49,616 nucleotides of DNA from Nitrospinota bacterium (GTDB taxonomy: Bacteria; 2-12-FULL-45-22; JACOWJ01): assembly GCA_016176845.1 (NCBI GenBank), contig JACOWJ010000026.1, positions 1 through 49,616 on the forward strand. Reading direction: 5' to 3'. Made by a program: the position numbers and the translations under genes. The notes under the pieces are model-generated. The model made no database searches and was not told the DNA's origin. It was given only the letters and a program-made list of their open reading frames with translations. Shown piece after piece: positions 66-37,698 of the stretch (position 1 is the first letter of the stretch; each line of letters starts with the position of its first letter).

Positions 66-154
66 GGGAGCCTCCTTGTTTCGATCCTTATGTTCATGGA
101 TAGGTCTCTGCGACCCCACCCCCATGCAGTTCACGATGGATTATTGGATCCTTC

Positions 155-183
155 AATAAAAAACGAGGCCTTCTTCGCCTCGT
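155..183 (-). terminator. Intrinsic terminator (minus strand)
   Basis: On the minus strand ACGAGGC (183-177) pairs perfectly with GCCTCGT (169-163) around a short loop, followed directly by TTTTTTATT. It lies 130 nt after the NusG-like gene, which it could terminate. It also lies between the promoter-like site at 252-280 and the aminotransferase start at 65, so it could attenuate that gene instead. Confidence 0.85.
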
Positions 184-251
184 CCTTCCTGAATCTCTTG
201 CCTCCAAAAGTCGCTGAAAAGAAGCCCTATTTCCACAAAAAGCTGGCCATT

Positions 252-280
252 AACCTACCAAAAAGAGGACCCTTTGTCAA
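252..280 (-). promoter_or_regulatory. Putative sigma70 promoter for the aminotransferase
   Basis: Minus strand: TTGACA at 280-275, 17-nt spacer, TAGGTT at 257-252. The -35 is perfect, the -10 weak. Transcripts would have a leader of about 180 nt that passes through the terminator at 155-183. Confidence 0.4.
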
Positions 281-311
281 GGCAAAACCCTTCCAATCGC
301 GACGCCAACGA

Positions 312-869
312 TTAGCACCGTTCCAGCCGGCCGGGGTCGATCCGGATAGCCACGCTCCTCTGCAGAAGCTCGAAGGTGACCACGAACAGCGAACGCCGGC
401 GATCGATCTCCACCAGTAACCCCTCGATCCCCTCGAGCGGACCATCCTTGACGCGGACCCGCTCCCCCACCTTCGGATTGGGGAAGGGGCAGAGCGGCTC
501 CTCAGACATCACCATCCGTTGGACGGACAGGATCTCCTCGTCGGGGACGACCGCCAGCCGATCCCACGATTCTCCCAACAGTCGCACCGTCCCGGGGATT
601 CGAAGGACCTCGAAGTAAGATGCTTTATCGATCGGGCCGCGCAGGAATAGATAGCCGGGGAAGAGGGGCACCTGGATCTTAAGGCGCTTGCCCCGTCTTT
701 GCCTCCAGATATCGGCCTGGGGGAGGAAAAGGTCGAAGGCCTTGCGGCTCAATGCAGTGTAGACCTGTTGCTCGCAATGGCTTCGGGTATACAGGACGTG
801 CCAAGAAAGGAACCCCTTGGATAAAAAAGCGGGATCCGGCCCCATCTGGGGCGCTCTCGATTCCAGCAT
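312..869 (-). CDS. NusG-like specialised antiterminator (UpxY/RfaH type)
   Basis: A 185-aa paralogue of NusG; the housekeeping nusG is at 39134-39664. Residues about 22-118 form an NGN domain (WHVLYTRSHCEQQV, then VPLFPGYLFLRG, the family's FPGY signature). Residues about 130-185 form a KOW domain (VGERVRVKDGPLEGIEG). Proteins of this size and type bind paused RNA polymerase and allow transcription through long, poorly translated operons, commonly exopolysaccharide clusters. No polysaccharide genes are in view, so its target operon is unknown. An AGAGGG site precedes the ATG. A sigma54-like site lies 48-63 nt upstream. It runs toward a terminator at 155-183. Confidence 0.85.
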   Translation of the reverse strand: MLESRAPQMGPDPAFLSKGFLSWHVLYTRSHCEQQVYTALSRKAFDLFLPQADIWRQRRGKRLKIQVPLFPGYLFLRGPIDKASYFEVLRIPGTVRLLGESWDRLAVVPDEEILSVQRMVMSEEPLCPFPNPKVGERVRVKDGPLEGIEGLLVEIDRRRSLFVVTFELLQRSVAIRIDPGRLERC

Positions 870-917
870 AATTCATTACCCTCTCGTCATGGTTGTCGGA
901 TATTTTCCTCCGAAAGA

Positions 918-933
918 AGCAAAAACTATGCCG
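918..933 (-). promoter_or_regulatory. Putative sigma54 (-24/-12) promoter
   Basis: Minus strand CGGCATAGTTTTTGCT has the invariant GG (932-931) and GC (920-919) separated by exactly 10 nt and resembles TGGCAC-N5-TTGCT. A small hairpin (TCGGA/TCCGA) follows before the NusG-like gene. RfaH-like genes under sigma54 control are plausible, but this rests on one motif match. Confidence 0.4.
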
Positions 934-1001
934 AATTTCCATTCTCAGGGCGAGATCATCGGGCGGTCATCCAATGAATCTCTCAATGGTTATCCTGATC
1001 T

Positions 1002-1523
1002 TTATTGAATATTCCATCCTCTACCCGGTCTGTCTTTCTCTCTTCCGCGGTTCGCTGCTCGCTGACGGATCACGAAGGTACCGGCAAGCTTGTCGTGCCA
1101 GCCCTGTCGGCGATCGTCAATGAGGACCCACAGGAAACCCAGCCCCAGCGGGAGGGCCGAAAGCAGGTACCCCATGGTTCGCCCAAAGGCTTGCAGACTA
1201 CTTACCTTATCCTCCTTGACCCCGACCACCCGGATGCCCAGCAGGAGCTTCCCCAGCGTCTGGCCTTGAGCGCTGGTCAAATAAGTAAAATAGCCCAGGT
1301 GGATCCCGAGCAAGAACAGGAGGAGAGGCAATATGAACAGGGAGAGCTTGGTCAAGAGGAGCTCCAGCTGGTGAGGGTCATCCCAGGAGAACTCGGGACC
1401 CAGGAGGGTCCAGAAGGAGAGGGAGATGAAGGCAAGATCGAGTAGCCCAAGGAAGCATTGATCGATCAAGCAGGCCAGGCAGCGTCGCCCCCAGCCAGCC
1501 CGCCTTTGCTCAAACCCCTCCAT
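1002..1523 (-). CDS. RDD-family integral membrane protein
   Basis: 173 aa. The RDD family signature is visible: an N-terminal R-R-x(3)-ACLID helix (residues about 11-35), a second hydrophobic stretch (about 58-85), the motif GQTLGKLLLGIRVVG (about 87-101) and a third segment (about 117-137) followed by DDRRQGWHDKLAGT. RDD proteins are small inner-membrane proteins; most have no proven role, and some are proposed ion or solute transporters. The start ATG lies 2 nt after the stop of the acidic zinc-ribbon gene, so the two are probably cotranscribed and may work together. Confidence 0.8.
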   Translation of the reverse strand: MEGFEQRRAGWGRRCLACLIDQCFLGLLDLAFISLSFWTLLGPEFSWDDPHQLELLLTKLSLFILPLLLFLLGIHLGYFTYLTSAQGQTLGKLLLGIRVVGVKEDKVSSLQAFGRTMGYLLSALPLGLGFLWVLIDDRRQGWHDKLAGTFVIRQRAANRGREKDRPGRGWNIQ

Positions 1524-1525
1524 CG

Positions 1526-2203
1526 TTACCTCCCCTCTTTCTTCCCCGGGTCTTGCTCCTCTTCCTCATCTTCCCAGGAGAGCTCGATCTCCTCGAGATC
1601 GAGGAGATCTGAGGCGTCCTCCGTTTCCTCGTCCATCTCCATTAGCGGCCCCTTTTCCTCTGGCTCGCCCCCCACCAGCTCGATCTCCTCCAAGTCGAGG
1701 TCGATCTCCAGGGGGGACCCCTTTATGGGCGGAGACCCTCCTGGCGGTTCCTCTTTCTGGGTCCCCTCTCCCGCTTCCTCCACCAGGGCGATCTCCTCCA
1801 GCTCCATGGCAACCTCTTCCCCTCTGTCTTGGAGAGCCAGGGTGACCTCCTCCTCCTCTTGAAAGTCGATCTCCCCAAGATCCAGCTGGATTCCCTCCAA
1901 CTCCGCCTCCGGGATGACCGACGACAAAGCATCCTGGGAGAAGGTCGGTTCCTCGTCTTCCTCTTCGATCATCTCGATACCGTGGGGCAGACCCTCCTCC
2001 AGGTCGGTCAGATCTTCGATCGATGGGACCGGTCGGGGCTCTCCTTGCTCCATGGCCTGCTGCATTGAGGAATAAATGTTCAGGGTTCCGGGCTTGATCC
2101 CCCAAAGGTTATGCTCCGCCTTGAAGGCCACCAGGTCCCTCCCGCACTTTTTGCACCTTTCCAGGTAATTAAAGCTCACGTAGCCGCACTTGGGACATTT
2201 CAT
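1526..2203 (-). CDS. Zinc-ribbon protein with long acidic tail, unknown function
   Basis: 225 aa. The N-terminus holds a short zinc ribbon with Cys3, Cys6, Cys17 and Cys20 (CPKC...CKKC). After residue about 65 the protein is dominated by Glu and Asp with repeated leucine-acidic patches such as DLEEIEL and DLGEIDF, and little predicted structure. A GGGGAGGAGC site precedes the ATG at 2203. It sits just upstream of the RDD membrane protein. I do not recognise a named family. The recurrent L-D-L-E-E-I-E-L segments suggest short docking repeats on a charged linker, possibly tethering a partner at the membrane, but that is inference. Confidence 0.7.
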   Translation of the reverse strand: MKCPKCGYVSFNYLERCKKCGRDLVAFKAEHNLWGIKPGTLNIYSSMQQAMEQGEPRPVPSIEDLTDLEEGLPHGIEMIEEEDEEPTFSQDALSSVIPEAELEGIQLDLGEIDFQEEEEVTLALQDRGEEVAMELEEIALVEEAGEGTQKEEPPGGSPPIKGSPLEIDLDLEEIELVGGEPEEKGPLMEMDEETEDASDLLDLEEIELSWEDEEEEQDPGKKEGR

Positions 2204-2260
2204 GCTGCCAGGCTCCTCCCCTCATCACGGGGGTCTTATTCCTTGAGCTCTTTAATCTTC

Positions 2261-3058
2261 TCACTCTACGGTGATCTTGGCGTCTTCGATGATCACGTTA
2301 TATAAGTACCCCGCGCCAAAATCTTTATCCTTCCTGAGGGTACCCTGGACCAAGATCGTATCCCCGGCTGTAGCGGCCTGATCTGTGGTCACCGTAAGAT
2401 CGTTGGCCCCCGAAGTCCCGGTACCATCCTGGAGGTGAACCCAATTCTTTCCCATAATTTCGCTGGAGAATTTCACCACCTTGCCACGCACTGCGATCGT
2501 CTTCCCATTCAGTTGATCCTTGTTCGAAAACAGCTCCTCCACGGTGTATCCGTCCTTAGCTTTTGAAATAGAGCCGGCCTTCGGAGCTTCACCCGCCGCT
2601 TTGCCCGTCGGGGCTCCCGCACCAGGATGGCCAGGAGGCATGGCCGATGAATCCATGGTCAAGCCATGAGGCATATCGGGACTTCCTGCCAAATGGAGCT
2701 CCGAAACGAAAAGGATCGATTCAAAGGTGCGGTTTAGCGTCCTGCTGTGATAGTTGGGCATCGGCATGCCCCCCCGAAACTCCACCTTGTCGCCGACGAC
2801 GACCTTCATCCGGGGTCCAACCGCCCAAATCTTCTTGCCGCCCTCGTCGATTTCAACATACGTGTATATGCCTCCATCCATCGTCGTCAAAACCGTTCCT
2901 GAATGGGTTTCACCGGAAGGGGCGCTTCCATGCCCCTGTATTTGTGACGTGGGGGTAGATGGAGCTTCCGGCATATTTGCGGCAGGCTTATCCTGACAGC
3001 CTCCCGTCATAAAAAAAGCAACCGCCGCGAGCGAAACCACGACCAATTTCCTCTTCAT
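2261..3058 (-). CDS. Lipoprotein with two OB-fold-like domains
   Basis: 265 aa from the ATG at 3058, chosen over an upstream in-frame ATG because GGAGG lies 5 nt before it. Residues 1-20 are a lipoprotein signal peptide ending in MTGG-Cys21, so the protein is probably membrane-anchored on the periplasmic side. A first module at about 40-112 (SGTVLTTMDGGIYTYVEID...GGMPMPNYHSRTLNR) resembles small secreted proteins seen near cytochromes in deltaproteobacteria. After a Pro/Ala/Gly linker, a second module at about 170-265 (GKTIAVRGKVVKFS...WVHLQDGTG) has the strand pattern of an OB fold. A ligand or partner cannot be named. Confidence 0.75.
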   Translation of the reverse strand: MKRKLVVVSLAAVAFFMTGGCQDKPAANMPEAPSTPTSQIQGHGSAPSGETHSGTVLTTMDGGIYTYVEIDEGGKKIWAVGPRMKVVVGDKVEFRGGMPMPNYHSRTLNRTFESILFVSELHLAGSPDMPHGLTMDSSAMPPGHPGAGAPTGKAAGEAPKAGSISKAKDGYTVEELFSNKDQLNGKTIAVRGKVVKFSSEIMGKNWVHLQDGTGTSGANDLTVTTDQAATAGDTILVQGTLRKDKDFGAGYLYNVIIEDAKITVE

Positions 3059-3175
3059 CGATTCCTCCGACCGATATCGTTGCAATAGTCCATAAAAATC
3101 GGCACCGTATCATCTCCTCCTGCCCTTTCGGAAGGCCTCGTCGATGCCTGTCTCCCCCGTAAGGGCGCTACGCCT

Positions 3176-3230
3176 GGCACCTGCCCCTTGGTCAGGGCTG
3201 GGTAAGCTTGCCCTAACAGACGCAGGTGCC
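3176..3230 (-). other. Long hairpin in the 5' leader of the lipoprotein gene
   Basis: GGCACCTGC (3176-3184) pairs perfectly with GCAGGTGCC (3222-3230). Inside it, TCAGGGC (3192-3198) pairs with GCCCTAA (3210-3216), with one mismatch or wobble. It lies about 120-170 nt before the lipoprotein start and just after a promoter-like site. It could be a structured leader or a dispersed palindrome; it matches no riboswitch consensus that I know. Confidence 0.6.
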
Positions 3231-3237
3231 CCAAATG

Positions 3238-3268
3238 GTTATAAATTTATCTTATCCCAAGGGGTCAA
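3238..3268 (-). promoter_or_regulatory. Weak sigma70-like promoter for the lipoprotein gene
   Basis: Minus strand TTGACC at 3268-3263 and TATAAC at 3243-3238. The 19-nt spacer is longer than ideal. The predicted start of transcription (about 3231) falls at the base of the hairpin at 3176-3230, which gives the site some contextual support. Confidence 0.3.
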
Positions 3269-3313
3269 AAAGGGCAAGCTCCTCGTCCTCCTCCTCATGG
3301 TCGCCTCGAACTT

Positions 3314-3382
3314 AGATTGCTTCGCTTCGCTCGCAATGACTTTATCGTGTCATTGCGAGGAGCGCCAGCGACGAAGCAATCT
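3314..3382. repeat. REP-like palindromic element
   Basis: AGATTGCTTCG at 3314-3324 pairs with CGAAGCAATCT at 3372-3382, and CGCAATGAC (3332-3340) with GTCATTGCG (3350-3358); the right arm has about 7 extra bases. The wording (CATTGCGAGGAGCG...CGAAGCAATCTC) is that of a palindrome common in intergenic regions of many bacterial genomes. No transposase is nearby. The rest of the 3059-3644 gap holds only the hairpin leader, a promoter-like site and a possible relic ORF. Confidence 0.75.
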
Positions 3383-3388
3383 CAAAAA

Positions 3389-3523
3389 ATGGAAATTCCT
3401 ACGATCGACTTAGAGGAACACTGGCCTCCGGGGACGGAATGGATGCTGGAGGTGAATGAGAAGGCGATCGACATGGTGGAAAAGGAGCTGCCCGAGGGGA
3501 TGGCGGTGGAGTTGTTCAAATAG
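3389..3523 (+). other. Possible relic ORF, 44 codons
   Basis: An ATG six bases after the REP-like element opens a 44-codon frame ending at TAG. Its product begins MEIPTIDLEEHWPPGTEW and looks more protein-like (mixed acidic and hydrophobic residues, sensible codons) than the surrounding DNA. There is no ribosome-binding site in front. It may be the C-terminal remnant of a gene whose 5' part was lost, or chance. I do not recognise it. Confidence 0.2.
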
Positions 3524-3644
3524 GGCCATATGGGGGAGAGATCCGCTCTCGGATCGGGGAGCCGGAGATCACAATGCGAAAGAGCATCGGCTGCGGCCCG
3601 CTGACCTGGGTTGCGAAATCGAGGGTTCTTGAAGGAAAAGGACC

Positions 3645-4292
3645 TTAGTGGATCAGCTTTCCGAGCCGGCTCCAGCGGATCCCGTGGTCCTCCCCGTTCC
3701 ATGAGAAATAGATGAGAAAGGCCTTCCCCTTGATCTTCCTCTCGTCCAGGAAGCCCCAGAAGCGGCTGTCCATGCTATTGTCCCGGTTGTCTCCCATCAT
3801 GAACAGGTGGCCGGATGGGACCTTGACTGGCCCAAAGTTGTCTCGGGTGGAGGCGGAATCGGGCAGGAATCCTTCATCCCGGTAAATGGCGTAATGCTCC
3901 TTCATGGGCCTCCGGTTGACATAGACCTGTTTGTTCCGGATCTCCACCATATCCCCGGGCAAGCCGACCACGCGTTTGATGAAGTCGCGTTTTTCGTCCT
4001 CGGGATATTTAAAGACGATGATATCCCCCCTTTGGGCCTCCTTGAAATGAATCAGGGTGGTATCCGTGAAGGGAAGCTTCACCCCGTAAATGAATTTGTT
4101 CACCAGGATATGATCCCCACTAACGAGGGTAGGGATCATGGACCCCGAGGGGATCTTGAAGGCTTGGACCACGAAGGTCCGGATGACCAAGGCCAGAATA
4201 ACCGCGTAGATCAAGGCCTCGGCATATTCCCGGACCACGGACTTTCTTTGGACTGATTCCTCTTGGGCGATCTCTAACGCTTTCTCTTCCAT
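3645..4292 (-). CDS. lepB: Signal peptidase I
   Basis: 215 aa, S26 family serine protease of the inner membrane that removes signal peptides from exported proteins. A transmembrane helix spans about residues 23-44 (YAEALIYAVILALVIRTFVV). The catalytic serine is Ser51 in PSGSMIPT, and the catalytic lysine is Lys106 in KRVVGLPGD. The C-terminal MGDNRDNSMDSRFWG box is intact. It starts 6 nt after the lepA stop, so lepA and lepB form a translationally close pair, an arrangement known in many bacteria. No clear terminator follows; only a short GATCCG/CGGATC hairpin at 3540-3555 without a U-run. Confidence 0.95.
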   Translation of the reverse strand: MEEKALEIAQEESVQRKSVVREYAEALIYAVILALVIRTFVVQAFKIPSGSMIPTLVSGDHILVNKFIYGVKLPFTDTTLIHFKEAQRGDIIVFKYPEDEKRDFIKRVVGLPGDMVEIRNKQVYVNRRPMKEHYAIYRDEGFLPDSASTRDNFGPVKVPSGHLFMMGDNRDNSMDSRFWGFLDERKIKGKAFLIYFSWNGEDHGIRWSRLGKLIH

Positions 4293-9441: not shown

Positions 9442-9840
9442 TTAAACCCTTCTCCTCTTCGGGGGGCGGCAACCATTATGGGGAATCGGGGTCATGTCCC
9501 GGATCAGATTGATCTCCAACCCTGCAGCCTGGAGCGCCCGGATGGCCGACTCTCTTCCTGCCCCCGGGCCCTTGACATAGACATCCACTTTCTTGACCCC
9601 CACATCCATCGCCTTCTTGGCCGCGTTTTCCGAGGCCACCTGGGCCGCGAAGGGGGTACTCTTGCGGGAGCCCTTAAAGCCCTCGGTCCCGGCGCTCGCC
9701 CAGGCCACCACGTTGCCCGCCGAATCGGTAATGCTGATGATTGTGTTGTTAAAAGTGGACTGAATATGGACGATCCCTTCGCCGATAACCCTTCGTTCCT
9801 TTTTCTTCTTTGCCCCCTTTTTCTTTCCCTGCTTGGCCAT
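9442..9840 (-). CDS. rpsK: 30S ribosomal protein S11
   Basis: 132 aa. A Lys-rich start is followed by [20 protein letters not shown], the typical S11 opening, and the conserved end [14 protein letters not shown]11 sits on the 30S platform next to the mRNA exit. It lies 8 nt after rpsM and abuts rpsD, so all three are probably translated in step. Confidence 0.98.
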
Positions 9841-16281: not shown

Positions 16282-16403
16282 AATGCAAAATGCAAAGTGT
16301 AAAATGCAAATTGTAAATTGTAAAAGAATCTCGTGCTTCAAGGTTCTTCATTTTGCACTTTGCACTTTGCACTTTGCACTTTGCACTTTGCATTTTGCAT
16401 TTT
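16282..16403. repeat. Convergent heptamer hairpin cassette E (TTTGCAC type)
   Basis: The right half (16350-16403) is seven tandem 7-mers, five of them exactly ACTTTGC flanked by ATTTTGC, plus a partial unit. The left half (16285-16326) is six degenerate units of the complement (GCAAAAT, GCAAAGT, GTAAAAT and so on). The outer 18 bases are a perfect inverted repeat (16282-16299 with 16384-16401). It starts 20 nt after the rpsN stop and ends 20 nt before the rpsH start. Confidence 0.9.
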
Positions 16404-23032: not shown

Positions 23033-23050
23033 CTGGTCTCCCGAAAGCAA

Positions 23051-23132
23051 GGGGTTAGGATCCAGGGATTAGGGATTAGTAGAAACCGAGGATTACCAAC
23101 TCGTTCTTACTAACCCCTAATCCCTAATCCCT
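23051..23132. repeat. Convergent heptamer hairpin cassette C (TAATCCC type)
   Basis: AGGGATTAGGGATTAG (23064-23079) and CTAATCCCTAATCCCT (23117-23132) are a perfect 16-bp inverted repeat made of tandem 7-mers, with variant units GGGGTTA and TAACCCC beside them. It begins 9 nt after the rpsJ stop and ends about 20 nt before rplC. It would fold into a stable hairpin in the mRNA; there is no U-run. Confidence 0.9.
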
Positions 23133-23141
23133 CTTTGCGCG

Positions 23142-23450
23142 CTAAAGTTTGATCTCGATGTCCACCCCGGCGGACAGGTCCAATTTCATCAGCTCGTCGA
23201 TCGTTTGAGGGGTGGGATCGTAGATATCCAAGAGGCGCTTGTGGGTACGGATCTCAAACTGCTCCCGCGATTTCTTATCCACGTGGGGTGACCTCAAGAC
23301 GGTGAACTTGTTCTTGACGGTGGGAAGGGGAATTGGCCCGACCACCTTGGCCCCGGTCTTCTTGGCCGTCTCCACGATCTCCCCCACGGACTGATCCAAT
23401 ACCCTGTGATCGTAAGCCTTCAGGTGGATCCTGATCTTTTGGTTCGCCAT
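23142..23450 (-). CDS. rpsJ: 30S ribosomal protein S10 (NusE)
   Basis: 102 aa from the ATG at 23450, preceded by AGAGG; the frame opens five codons earlier. The sequence [18 protein letters not shown] and the loop [20 protein letters not shown] are the S10 signature. Besides its place in the 30S head, S10 acts with NusB in antitermination and binds NusG. It follows tuf after 76 nt, so the S10 operon appears joined to the str operon. Confidence 0.98.
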
Positions 23451-32093: not shown

Positions 32094-32119
32094 AAGAACC
32101 CCTCCTCACACACAGGAAA

Positions 32120-32230
32120 TAGGGGTTAGGGGCTAGGGGTTAGCAAAAGCAAATGCATTTCACCAACCTCCAACCTCCGATCACCGATCCGGCGAATCCC
32201 TAATCCCTAATCCCTAATCTCTAACCCCTA
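32120..32230. repeat. Convergent heptamer hairpin cassette D (rpoB-rpoC gap)
   Basis: TAGGGGTTAG (32120-32129) is the perfect inverse of CTAACCCCTA (32221-32230). The next 14 bases inward match with four transitions, so up to 24 bp can pair. The right arm carries three TAATCCC units. It overlaps the rpoB stop codon (32228-32230) and ends 26 nt before rpoC. Confidence 0.85.
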
Positions 32231-35200
32231 ATTTGAGTTCTCTTCGCCCTCGATCAACTCCACATCTAAGGCCAGGCTTTGAAGCTCTTTGATCAAGACG
32301 TTGAAGGACTCTGGCAGGTTCGGCACCGCCGTATACTCTCCCTTGACGATGGCCTCGTACATCCGGGTCCTCCCCGAGACGTCGTCCGATTTGATGGTCA
32401 ACATCTCCTGAAGGGTCTTGGCTGCCCCATAGGCCTCCAGGGCCCATACCTCCATCTCTCCCAGACGCTGGCCGCCGAACTGGGCCTTGCCCCCCAGGGG
32501 TTGCTGGGTGATCAAAGAGTATGGACCGGTGGAGCGGGCATGGATCTTATCGTCCACCAGGTGATGGAGCTTCATCATATAGATCTGGCCCACGACCACC
32601 TTTTGATCGAAGGACCCGCCCGTCTTGCCATCGTACAGGACGGTCTCCCCCCATGGGGGCAAACCTGCCTGCCGGAGGAGGTTTTGGATGTCCTCTTCCG
32701 TAGCCCCATCGAAGACGGGGGAGGCCACATGATAGCCCAGGGCTTTGGCCGCCCACCCCAGATTGGTCTCCAGAATCTGACCCACGTTCATCCGTGAAGG
32801 CACCCCAAGCGGGTTGAGGATCAACTCGATCGGCGTCCCGTCGGGCAAGTAGGGCATATCCTCTTCGGGGACGATCTTGGCGATGACGCCCTTGTTGCCA
32901 TGCCGGCCTGCCATTTTGTCGCCCACGGAGAGCTTGCGTTTCATGGCTACGTAAACCTTGACCACCTTGATGACTCCAGGGGCCAGATCGTCGCCCCTGC
33001 GCATCTTGGAGATCTTCTCCTCCAGCATGGTCCGAAGGATATGGATCTGTTCGCCAGCCCGGGCATCCATCTCCTGGATCCCGGCCTTCAAGGAGTCCTG
33101 GCTATCGCCTTCGATTTTGAGGTTCAGCAGCTGATAGGAGCTTATTCGCTCAAGGACCTCCGGAGTCAGCTTGCCCCCCTTGGAGCTTAGGCCCTCGCCC
33201 GTGGCCGGGTCTCGGACCTCAGCCCCGCTGATCTTCCCCGCCAGGAGCCGCCGAATCCGCTTATCTCGTTCCTCTTGAACCAGATGGATCTCGTCGTTAA
33301 AATCCTTCTCGATCCTGGTCGTCTCCTGCTCCTCGATCGACAACGTCCTCGGGTCTTTCTCCGTTCCCTTGCGGGAGAAGACTTTTACGTCGGTCACCGT
33401 CCCTTCGATGCCGGGAGGCACAACCAACGAGGTGTCTCGCACGTCACCGGCCTTCTCGCCGAAGATCGCCTTAAGGAGCTTCTCTTCCGGGCTCAGCTGG
33501 GTCTCTCCTTTAGGCGTGATCTTGCCCACCAGGATATCGCCCGGCTTCACCTTGGAGCCGATCCGGATGATGCCGCTCTCATCGAGGCTCTTGAGGGCTT
33601 CTTCGCTCACGTTGGGGATATCGCGAGTGATCTCTTCCTTGCCCTGCTTCGTGTCGCGCGCCTCCACCTCCAGCTCTTCGATATGGATCGAGGTAAAGAC
33701 GTCCTCCTTGACTACCTTCTCGCTGATGACGATAGCGTCCTCAAAGTTATAGCCTTCCCAAGGCATGAAGGCCACCAGGATGTTGCGGCCTAAGGCCAAT
33801 TCCCCGCGATCGGTGGCCGGCCCATCGGCGATGATATCTCCTTTCTCCGCGGGCTCCCCTTCTCGGATGATCGGCCTCTGATTGAGGCAGGTGTTCTGGT
33901 TGGAACGCTGATACTTGGTCAAGTTGTAAATCTCGATTCGGGGCTCAGCGTTCTCTTCTCTCTCCTCTCTCTCCTCCTCCAGCACGCGAACTACGATACG
34001 CGAGGCATCCACGGAGATCACCGTGCCGTTGGCCCGGGCGACCACCACCGCCCCAGAGTCCCGGGCCGTGATGTACTCCATGCCCGTCCCCACGAGCGGA
34101 GCCTCGGTCTTCAGCAAGGGCACTGCCTGCCGTTGCATGTTGGAGCCCATTAGGGCCCGGTTGGCATCATCGTTTTCCAGGAACGGGATCAGCGAGGCGG
34201 CCACGCTCACCAGCTGCTTGGGAGAGACGTCCATGTAATCGACCTTTTCCGGCGGGACCATCACAAATTCGCTGCCCTTCCGGGACGAGATCAGCTCCTG
34301 GGTGAAATCGCCCTCTTCGTTCACCTCGGCATTGGCCTGTGCGATGACGTATCTCTCCTCCTCGATGGCCGACAGATGATCGACCTGATCGGTGAGCCGG
34401 CCGTTCTCCACTTTCCGATAGGGGGTCTCGATCAGGCCGAACTCGTTGACCCGGGCGTACGTGCTGGGCGAAGCGATCAGGCCGATGTTGGGCCCTTCCG
34501 GGGTCTCGATGGGACAGATCCGCCCGTAATGGGAGGGATGCACGTCTCGGACTTCGAAACCCGCCCGATCCCGCGTCAGCCCGCCCGGCCCCAGGGCGCT
34601 TAGGCGACGCTTGTGGGTGATCTCCGACAGGGGATTGGTCTGGTCCATGAACTGCGAGAGCTGGCTGCTGCCGAAGAATTCCTTGATCGCCGCCATGATC
34701 GGCTTGGAGTTGATCAGGTCGTGGGGCATGGCCGACTCCAGGTCCTGGATGCTCATTCGTTCCCGGAGGGCCCGCTCCATGCGAACCAGGCCGATGCGGA
34801 ATTGGTTCTCCAACAGTTCCCCCACCGATCGCACCCGCCGGTTTCCCAGATTATCTATATCATCCACCGAGCCGATGCCGTGTCGCAGGTCGATCAGGTA
34901 CTTGATGACCGCCACGATATCCTCGGTGGTTAGCGTCCTTTGGTCCAAGGGGATGCCCAGGCCCAGCTTGGTATTGAGCTTCATCCGACCGATCTTGGAA
35001 AGGTCGTACCGCTTGGCGTTGAAGAAAAGGTTATTGAAGAGCTTGACCGCCGGCTCCTTGGTCGGCGGGTCCCCTGGCCTGAGACGCTTGTAGATCTCCA
35101 GCAGGGCCTCATCCGAGGTGCTGATCCGGTCCATGGCCAGAGTATCTCGCAGGGAGGAATCGTAGCGGAGGTTATCGATGTAAAGAATCTTAAATTGCTT

Positions 35201-37420: not shown

Positions 37421-37505
37421 GTTCGATCCCACCTCCTTCCAGGACCCTTCGTCCGCTGTCCGCTCTAAAACAAGATCCCTCATTGGAAGACCCGTAAACC
37501 ATCAT

Positions 37506-37523
37506 GACCCACCAGGGTGGGTC
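37506..37523 (-). other. Perfect hairpin in the rplA-rplJ leader
   Basis: GACCCACC (37506-37513) pairs with GGTGGGTC (37516-37523), a compact 8-bp palindrome about 85 nt before the rplJ start. It may be part of an L10-binding leader, but I could not match the known L10 leader consensus by eye. Confidence 0.5.
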
Positions 37524-37551
37524 GTCCCCGCAGAGGAAAAGGTCCTTCAGA

Positions 37552-37616
37552 AAGACCCGGGCATTTTCACGGTAACCGGTCATACCTAATAGGCACCCAA
37601 GCCCATGAAAATGGCC
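37552..37616. repeat. Intercistronic repeat, family G copy 2
   Basis: CGGGCATTTTCACGGTAA at 37558-37575 is identical to 14079-14096. TGAAAATGGCC at 37606-37616 is its inverted partner, here on the other side than in copy 1. Lies in the rplA-rplJ gap. Confidence 0.65.
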
Positions 37617-37623
37617 TGTGAGG

Positions 37624-37661
37624 CCCCCTCTCCCTTCGGGGGAGAGGGTTGGGGTGAGGGG
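37624..37661. repeat. GAGAGGG-type dispersed hairpin
   Basis: CCCTCTCCC (37626-37634) pairs with GGGAGAGGG (37640-37648), followed by TTGGGGTGAGGGG. This wording is a very common intergenic palindrome in many bacterial genomes. It lies between rplA and rplJ, about 40-75 nt after the rplA stop. Confidence 0.7.
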
Positions 37662-37698
37662 CTATTTTCATATTAAACCCTCCCCCAAACGGGGCCCC

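Follow-up and report, generated by a model that had tools for sequence, protein, structure and literature searches.

A heptamer hairpin between rpsJ and rplC belongs to a genome-wide population of inverted period-7 arrays with several unrelated cores

The genome from which the window was taken (the window being the whole stretch of 49,616 nucleotides analyzed here) carries a population of hairpins with a period of 7, an inverted design, several unrelated cores, and ends that are shared by 63 elements with five core types. The hairpin at 23064-23132 of the window is probably one copy, of the family that we call A, within this population, whose many members are short, non-autonomous, and intergenic and would have spread ready-made and had their arms resized later by slippage.

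A sequence-only reading had described a perfect 16-bp heptamer stem between rpsJ and rplC, and the stem is real: arms AGGGATTAGGGATTAG (23064-23079) and CTAATCCCTAATCCCT (23117-23132) are complementary at 16 of 16 nt, with 37 nt between them, while 49.6 kb of random sequence is expected to contain 0.001 inverted repeats of this length and perfection with spacers of up to 100. An alternative shifted register pairs 23064-23086 with 23103-23125 at 87%. The start at 23051 given in that reading is explained by an outlying AGGGGTTAGG at 23050-23059, which, judged from its letters, is probably the leftover of another heptamer unit. The features of the window that concern us are as follows, with strand given where one is assigned:

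23033-23141, minus strand: rpsJ-rplC intergenic gap containing the cassette
23050-23059: outlying AGGGGTTAGG, from our reading of the sequence
23064-23079: left arm, 2.3 copies of AGGGATT (family A core)
23080-23109: loop region of 30 nt, the outer parts of which form an imperfect stem extension (GTAGAAACCGAG / CTCGTTCTTAC), from sequence and predicted fold
23110-23132: right arm, 3.3 copies of CTAATCC/CTAACCC, with 23117-23132 perfectly complementary to the left arm
16282-16403: family C cassette between rpsN and rpsH (gene names as in the sequence-only reading), AATGCAA / TTTGCAC arms, 27-nt spacer
32117-32233: second family A cassette between rpoC and rpoB, TAGGGGT / AATCCCT arms

The cassette at 16282-16403 has the same architecture built on an unrelated heptamer, as first proposed, and the spacer of the one at 32117-32233 holds further heptamer-phased units, CCAACCT and CCGATCA. 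Another dispersed repeat, which contains an CCCTCTCCCTTCGGGGGAGAGGGTTGGGGTGAGGGG hairpin, lies at 37494-37676; it has no heptamer kinship and up to 23 overlapping matches in the genome sample.

The gap that holds the window hairpin measures 109 bp between the stop codon of rpsJ (23142-23144, minus strand) and the ATG of rplC (23032-23030), and the predicted folds of 23040-23140 reach -45.0 kcal/mol on one strand and -44.7 kcal/mol on the other. Among the 77 measurable of 80 other bacterial loci the median rpsJ-rplC gap is 16 bp; since seven of these loci have gaps of 97 to 3831, length by itself is not decisive. In the single same-order genome compared (G001), the gap is ~20 bp (between the end of the rpsJ match at 1481 and the start of the rplC match at 1501). 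A search of the window against Rfam at gathering score returned five tRNAs only, and the hairpin matches no known RNA family. Its best end-to-end match is a hairpin at L130:14366-14448 (83 nt aligned at 71%, E 5e-7). In its arms, in loop length, and in the TTCTTA-CTAACCCC junction it agrees with family A hairpins, which identifies it as a member of that core family.

To define this population, we sampled the source genome (G000), a 68%-complete MAG of 1.53 Mb in 61 contigs, through 40 stretches and the window (704,759 b, 46% of the genome); the stretches are contig starts, except C61:60000-79999, which was chosen for known hits. Period-7 arrays, defined by a self-match score of 12 or more, number 193 in this 705-kb sample, and the other periods from 2 to 30 give 0 to 11 arrays each, save the multiples 14, 21, and 28; no period-7 array appears when the first 401 kb are replaced by third-order Markov sequence. 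With rotations and strands merged, the arrays reduce to 29 consensus heptamers. An inverted partner lies within 150 nt of 140 of the 190 arrays with full flanks, compared with 19 direct partners, and the control for pairing yielded 18 inverted matches in the best of up to six places 1.2-3 kb away. Inverted heptamer arrays with several cores are thus found genome-wide, in agreement with the sequence-only reading, and fall into at least five families, which were assigned by short strings:

Family A: TTAGGGA/TAGGGGY, 54 arrays
Family B: TTTTAAG/TTTTAGG, 53 arrays
Family C: AAATTGG and AAATGCA types, 59 arrays
Family D: AGCTCAT/AGCTCGT, 21 arrays
Family E: GGGGACA, 4 arrays
Other cores: 2 arrays

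That reading had set its mechanism against drift of all arrays from one ancestral sequence. When every rotation and both strands are allowed, the families are separated by minimum Hamming distances of 2 to 4 (1 between two C subgroups), and random three-variant heptamer families lie at distance 2 in 53% and 3 in 34% of cases. The families are thus as far apart as random heptamers, and common descent of all cores from one heptamer, as judged on 7 letters only, is not supported.

Polarity is fixed within families A to D. The G-rich arm comes first in all partnered arrays of families A (39/39), B (50/50), and C (38/38), and family D is reversed, with the C-rich arm first in 10 of 11; these counts are per array, so that one cassette may count twice. 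Chance meeting of arrays would be expected to produce both polarities. Loops and flanks are also conserved among hairpins of one family. The arms of a given locus pair no better with each other than with arms swapped in from other loci in families A, B, and D, which gives no sign there that one arm was copied locally from its partner or that pairing is under selection; on these grounds we rejected arm-to-arm copying and compensatory change. In family C, own arms pair somewhat better than swapped ones, a value reached by 103 of 5000 shuffles. Family C arrays also often have a small outer hairpin whose stem sequence varies by copy at the same position and with the same shape (e.g., L119:5842, L126:15061, L175:2132, L190:321). 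An outer stem of 5 or more is present in 21 of 58 family C arrays, compared with 28 of 430 control places in intergenic DNA and 8 of 108 flanks in family A, a sign of structure conserved without sequence conservation.

The conserved loops and flanks and the single polarity within families, together with the shared ends described below, point to dispersed copies instead of arrays made on site. The sequence-only reading had proposed a mechanism that makes heptamer-based inverted arrays, in place of the spread of one sequence; what stands of this proposal is that the design outlives any one sequence and recurs with several cores, and what does not stand is making on site, since the families behave as copies and own arms have no advantage in A, B, and D. 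Some cellular activity could nevertheless build such arrays from any sequence, through an enzyme with a 7-nt step or through slippage and template switching at hairpins. The recurrence of one design in at least five unrelated families, the dominance of period 7, and the spacer of the 32117-32233 cassette, which holds the 7-nt phase while the unit changes, are what this explanation would predict; we consider it unlikely in light of the within-family conservation of loops, ends, and polarity, the failure of own arms to outperform swapped ones, and enzyme searches (below) that found no reverse transcriptase and no linkage to Y1_Tnp.

Alignment of 63 right ends reveals AAAAWGGAAATTCCTATRCGAT at 0.9-2.25 bits per position, followed by a weaker YAARTTA, after which conservation drops off sharply to nothing. 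Left ends carry the same YAARTTA, in an alignment for which the start-finding rule mis-set a few left ends. The ends YAARTTA ... AAAAWGGAAATTCCTATRCGATYAARTTA are common to four heptamer core types and one ordinary palindrome (type P, GATTGCTTCG or GATTCCTCGC); under a stricter start rule, which retained 63 of 73 right ends, the shared-end elements divide by core into A 20, B 13, D 11, E 11, and P 8. Eight of the 63 stand in direct tandem with a further same-direction element. With two mismatches or fewer, the ends match 84 times in the source genome, 26 times in the same-order genome, and once or twice in each of 4 genomes among the other 288; viral contigs contain no exact match to them. One of these outlying copies, in G265 from another lineage (L206, around position 1500), has two mismatches and heptamer-like AATTACG/AATTACA units upstream. 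Copies in the same-order genome enclose other cores, including, by eye, an GCAGGCTAAAGCCTGC-type hairpin in 6 of 13 loci fetched. The presence of several cores inside the same ends in both genomes indicates that cores have been exchanged between fixed ends. A second host element has GACYAAATAACTTKCCCAT ends in inverted orientation, mostly with the B heptamer inside (22 termini), and TTTTAAG therefore occurs as one heptamer in two host elements. An element at L118:9608-9691 has the type B inverted ends and a non-heptamer core (9608-9673).

Conserved termini, a short noncoding body, and dispersed copies, the hallmarks of MITEs, are found in the 63 elements and in the type B inverted-end elements. 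The window copy itself lacks the conserved termini, as do 20 of the 54 family A arrays under a 110-nt rule, and may have arrived as part of an element. No target-site duplication was detected at the shared ends of 55 non-tandem elements, the flanking 7-mers of which match at 4.02 of 7 positions vs. 3.94 when shuffled; the same comparison ruled out the left and right YAARTTA as a target duplication. Integron attC sites were considered, given the integron integrase described below, and dropped, as the ends do not keep the GTT triplet (left position -4: G 24, A 20, C 11). A promoter or leader role, considered because several shared ends precede start codons, was dropped because their orientation to genes is random.

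The arrays lie outside predicted genes in 178 of 193 cases; genes were called with a home-made dicodon caller, whose first cut-off missed rplV and rpsS of the window, and array placement used a lower cut-off. Occupied gaps (n = 111) comprise 89 co-directional, 14 divergent, and 8 convergent, which, with the strong predicted RNA folds and the location of three cassettes within the S10-spc and rpoBC gene clusters, would suit operon hairpins retained for transcript stability, pausing, or attenuation. However, the available gaps of 30 bp or more (n = 443) are themselves 345 co-directional, 58 divergent, and 40 convergent, hence there is no excess, and element ends in co-directional gaps are oriented with the genes in 20 cases and against them in 25. 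The lack of extra pairing between own arms in A, B, and D, the lack of an Rfam family at the site, and the short rpsJ-rplC gap of the same-order genome likewise weigh against such an RNA-level role, which appears quite improbable.

The sequence-only reading had also proposed looking for a linked enzyme such as a transposase or reverse transcriptase, and no such enzyme could be tied to the arrays. Searches of the 68%-complete source genome returned no match for Y1_Tnp, which is present in 7 of 10 genomes searched, for RVT_1 (reverse transcriptase), or for Transposase_20 (IS110). They returned six matches for tyrosine recombinase, one for DDE_Tnp_1 (below its cut-off), one for Transposase_mut (positions 204-270 of 379), and one TnpB-like gene truncated by the contig end. 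Two of the genes located were the following:

L265:3593-4444 (G000 contig C6): TnpB-like gene, no element ends beside it
L181:3379-4611 (G000 contig C17): a transposase gene of the IS1634 family that seems to lack the N-terminal part, matching profile positions 167-438 of 483

The stretches around seven enzyme-match places in this 68%-complete genome contain no autonomous element with shared ends. Where such ends do occur close to tyrosine-recombinase genes, at L266 and L267, the copies resemble ordinary neighbors. The genome also encodes an integron integrase at L268:763-1731 (G000 contig C26; TIGR02249, 506.7 bits vs. a cut-off of 265) and a second one present as a C-terminal fragment only (L269:1338-1715).

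These searches bear on RAYT-type REP elements, whose mobility depends on a Y1 (TnpA-REP) transposase. Dispersed, paired intergenic hairpins and the occurrence of Y1_Tnp in most genomes searched are in keeping with this system, yet the Y1 transposase flanked by repeats that characterizes it was found neither in the source genome, a third of which is missing, nor as an enrichment elsewhere, 20 Y1_Tnp neighborhoods in four other genomes having only 3 arrays in 78 kb; we regard it as very unlikely. Hardly credible as a full account are ordinary long simple sequence repeats, in which polymerase slippage generates heptamers and their inverted pairing is incidental: a heptamer excess is published (Mrazek 2007, as cited in PMC4679880 and PMC4692102) and identical units do cluster, but the 140 of 190 arrays with inverted partners against 19 direct, and the conserved loops and ends, refute all but a contribution from slippage, which we keep as part of the best explanation.

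In the arrays, 164 of 477 adjacent units are identical, compared with 136.7 +/- 7.1 in shuffles, the excess that slippage would yield. In the explanation we favor, the hairpins, presumably mobile, would spread ready-made in the manner of MITEs or REPs, carried by an enzyme that may be absent from the assembly, extinct, or unrecognized. After landing, arms would grow or shrink in 7-nt steps by slippage, which would leave runs of identical units and unequal arms. The rpsJ-rplC copy would be an insertion that the cell tolerates, present as an RNA hairpin in S10 operon transcripts and with no sequence-dependent role. Counting against ready-made spread are the failure to find an end-carrying enzyme or a target-site duplication, the window copy without ends, and the own-arm match in family C; it also leaves the period of 7 in so many unrelated cores unexplained.

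The heptamer habit is patchy outside the source genome. Twenty stretches from 20 other-lineage genomes contain no period-7 array in 326 kb (one stretch, L241, is without readable bases), and 80 rplC loci, mostly from Actinobacteria and Bacteroidetes, contain three in 1.47 Mb. Smaller samples of G001, G002, G010, G017, G030, and G048 hold 7, 6, 3, 9, 5, and 4 arrays, with partly different cores, the last four genomes having been picked for TAATCCC dyads, which makes their counts a non-random sample; inverted partners were found for 2/7, 0/6, 0/3, 0/9, 0/4, and 2/4, respectively. The sparseness of these arrays and of their inverted partners indicates that the density and the hairpin form are special to the source genome. 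Long arrays of AGAACAA and TCTTTGC, about 110 bp each and with few inverted partners, occur in the same-order genome at L150:3278-4148.

The closest known systems, as described in the available parts of the papers cited, share some of these features. The GGGAATC heptamers of Xanthomonas and GGGGAYT heptamers of Nostoc form intergenic arrays (186 and 183 in two genomes), with facing pairs that form inverted repeats in 70 and 75 cases (Rehm 2015, PMC4692102). The Xanthomonas repeats resemble ours in their intergenic arrays, inverted pairs, and one polarity, and family A has a similarly G-rich core; in contrast, one core is described per genome, vs. at least five families here, and the available text describes no conserved ends, loops, or exchanged cores. 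Bacterial long simple sequence repeats with a heptamer unit (Mrazek, Rehm) are marked by tandem arrays in a mostly intergenic position, which are likewise found here. The P6b hairpin of the cyanobacterial tRNA-Leu intron (PMC3488679) also has degenerate heptamers on both sides, variable copy number, and more than one repeat class, although it is presented there as a single intron site with no dispersed population. The TAACTGA repeats of Beggiatoaceae (PMC4679880) are abundant intergenic heptamer arrays of one lineage, but are reported as one heptamer in direct orientation (169 sets, one inverted repeat) before start codons. REP palindromes of the GTAG and CGTC superfamilies (PMC3733652) are hairpins dispersed between genes and often found in pairs, with no known transposase for the CGTC type; unlike ours, they have 5-13 bp stems, and the accessible portion of that paper mentions no tandem heptamers. 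Finally, a Porphyromonas gingivalis MITE (PMC4596501) holds an internal minisatellite and thus tandem repeats within a miniature element, described there as a single family.

Inverted heptamer arrays are therefore known already from Xanthomonas; several families with exchanged cores are new, and in the literature covered, mostly openly accessible, we found no paper on such families in one genome. A tentative extension, which we hold to be possible if rather doubtful, is a mobile system of one order that keeps its ends YAARTTA ... AAAAWGGAAATTCCTATRCGATYAARTTA and swaps its hairpin cores, accepting any long hairpin, in most cases one made of 7-nt units, for its architecture and not for its sequence. 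If this were true, the 7-nt period would reflect the step size of an enzyme that moves or copies the cores. For the preference of long bacterial tandem repeats for a unit of 7, the sources at hand offer only a guess about polymerase contacts (Mrazek 2007, via PMC4679880 and PMC4692102). A genome in which at least five heptamer families without evident kinship follow one inverted design, and in which four of these families share a pair of ends, separates the question of what is copied from the question of why seven, and, given comparison with sister genomes, the hairpins of this genome are a natural series for telling apart slippage, hairpin transposition, and selection.
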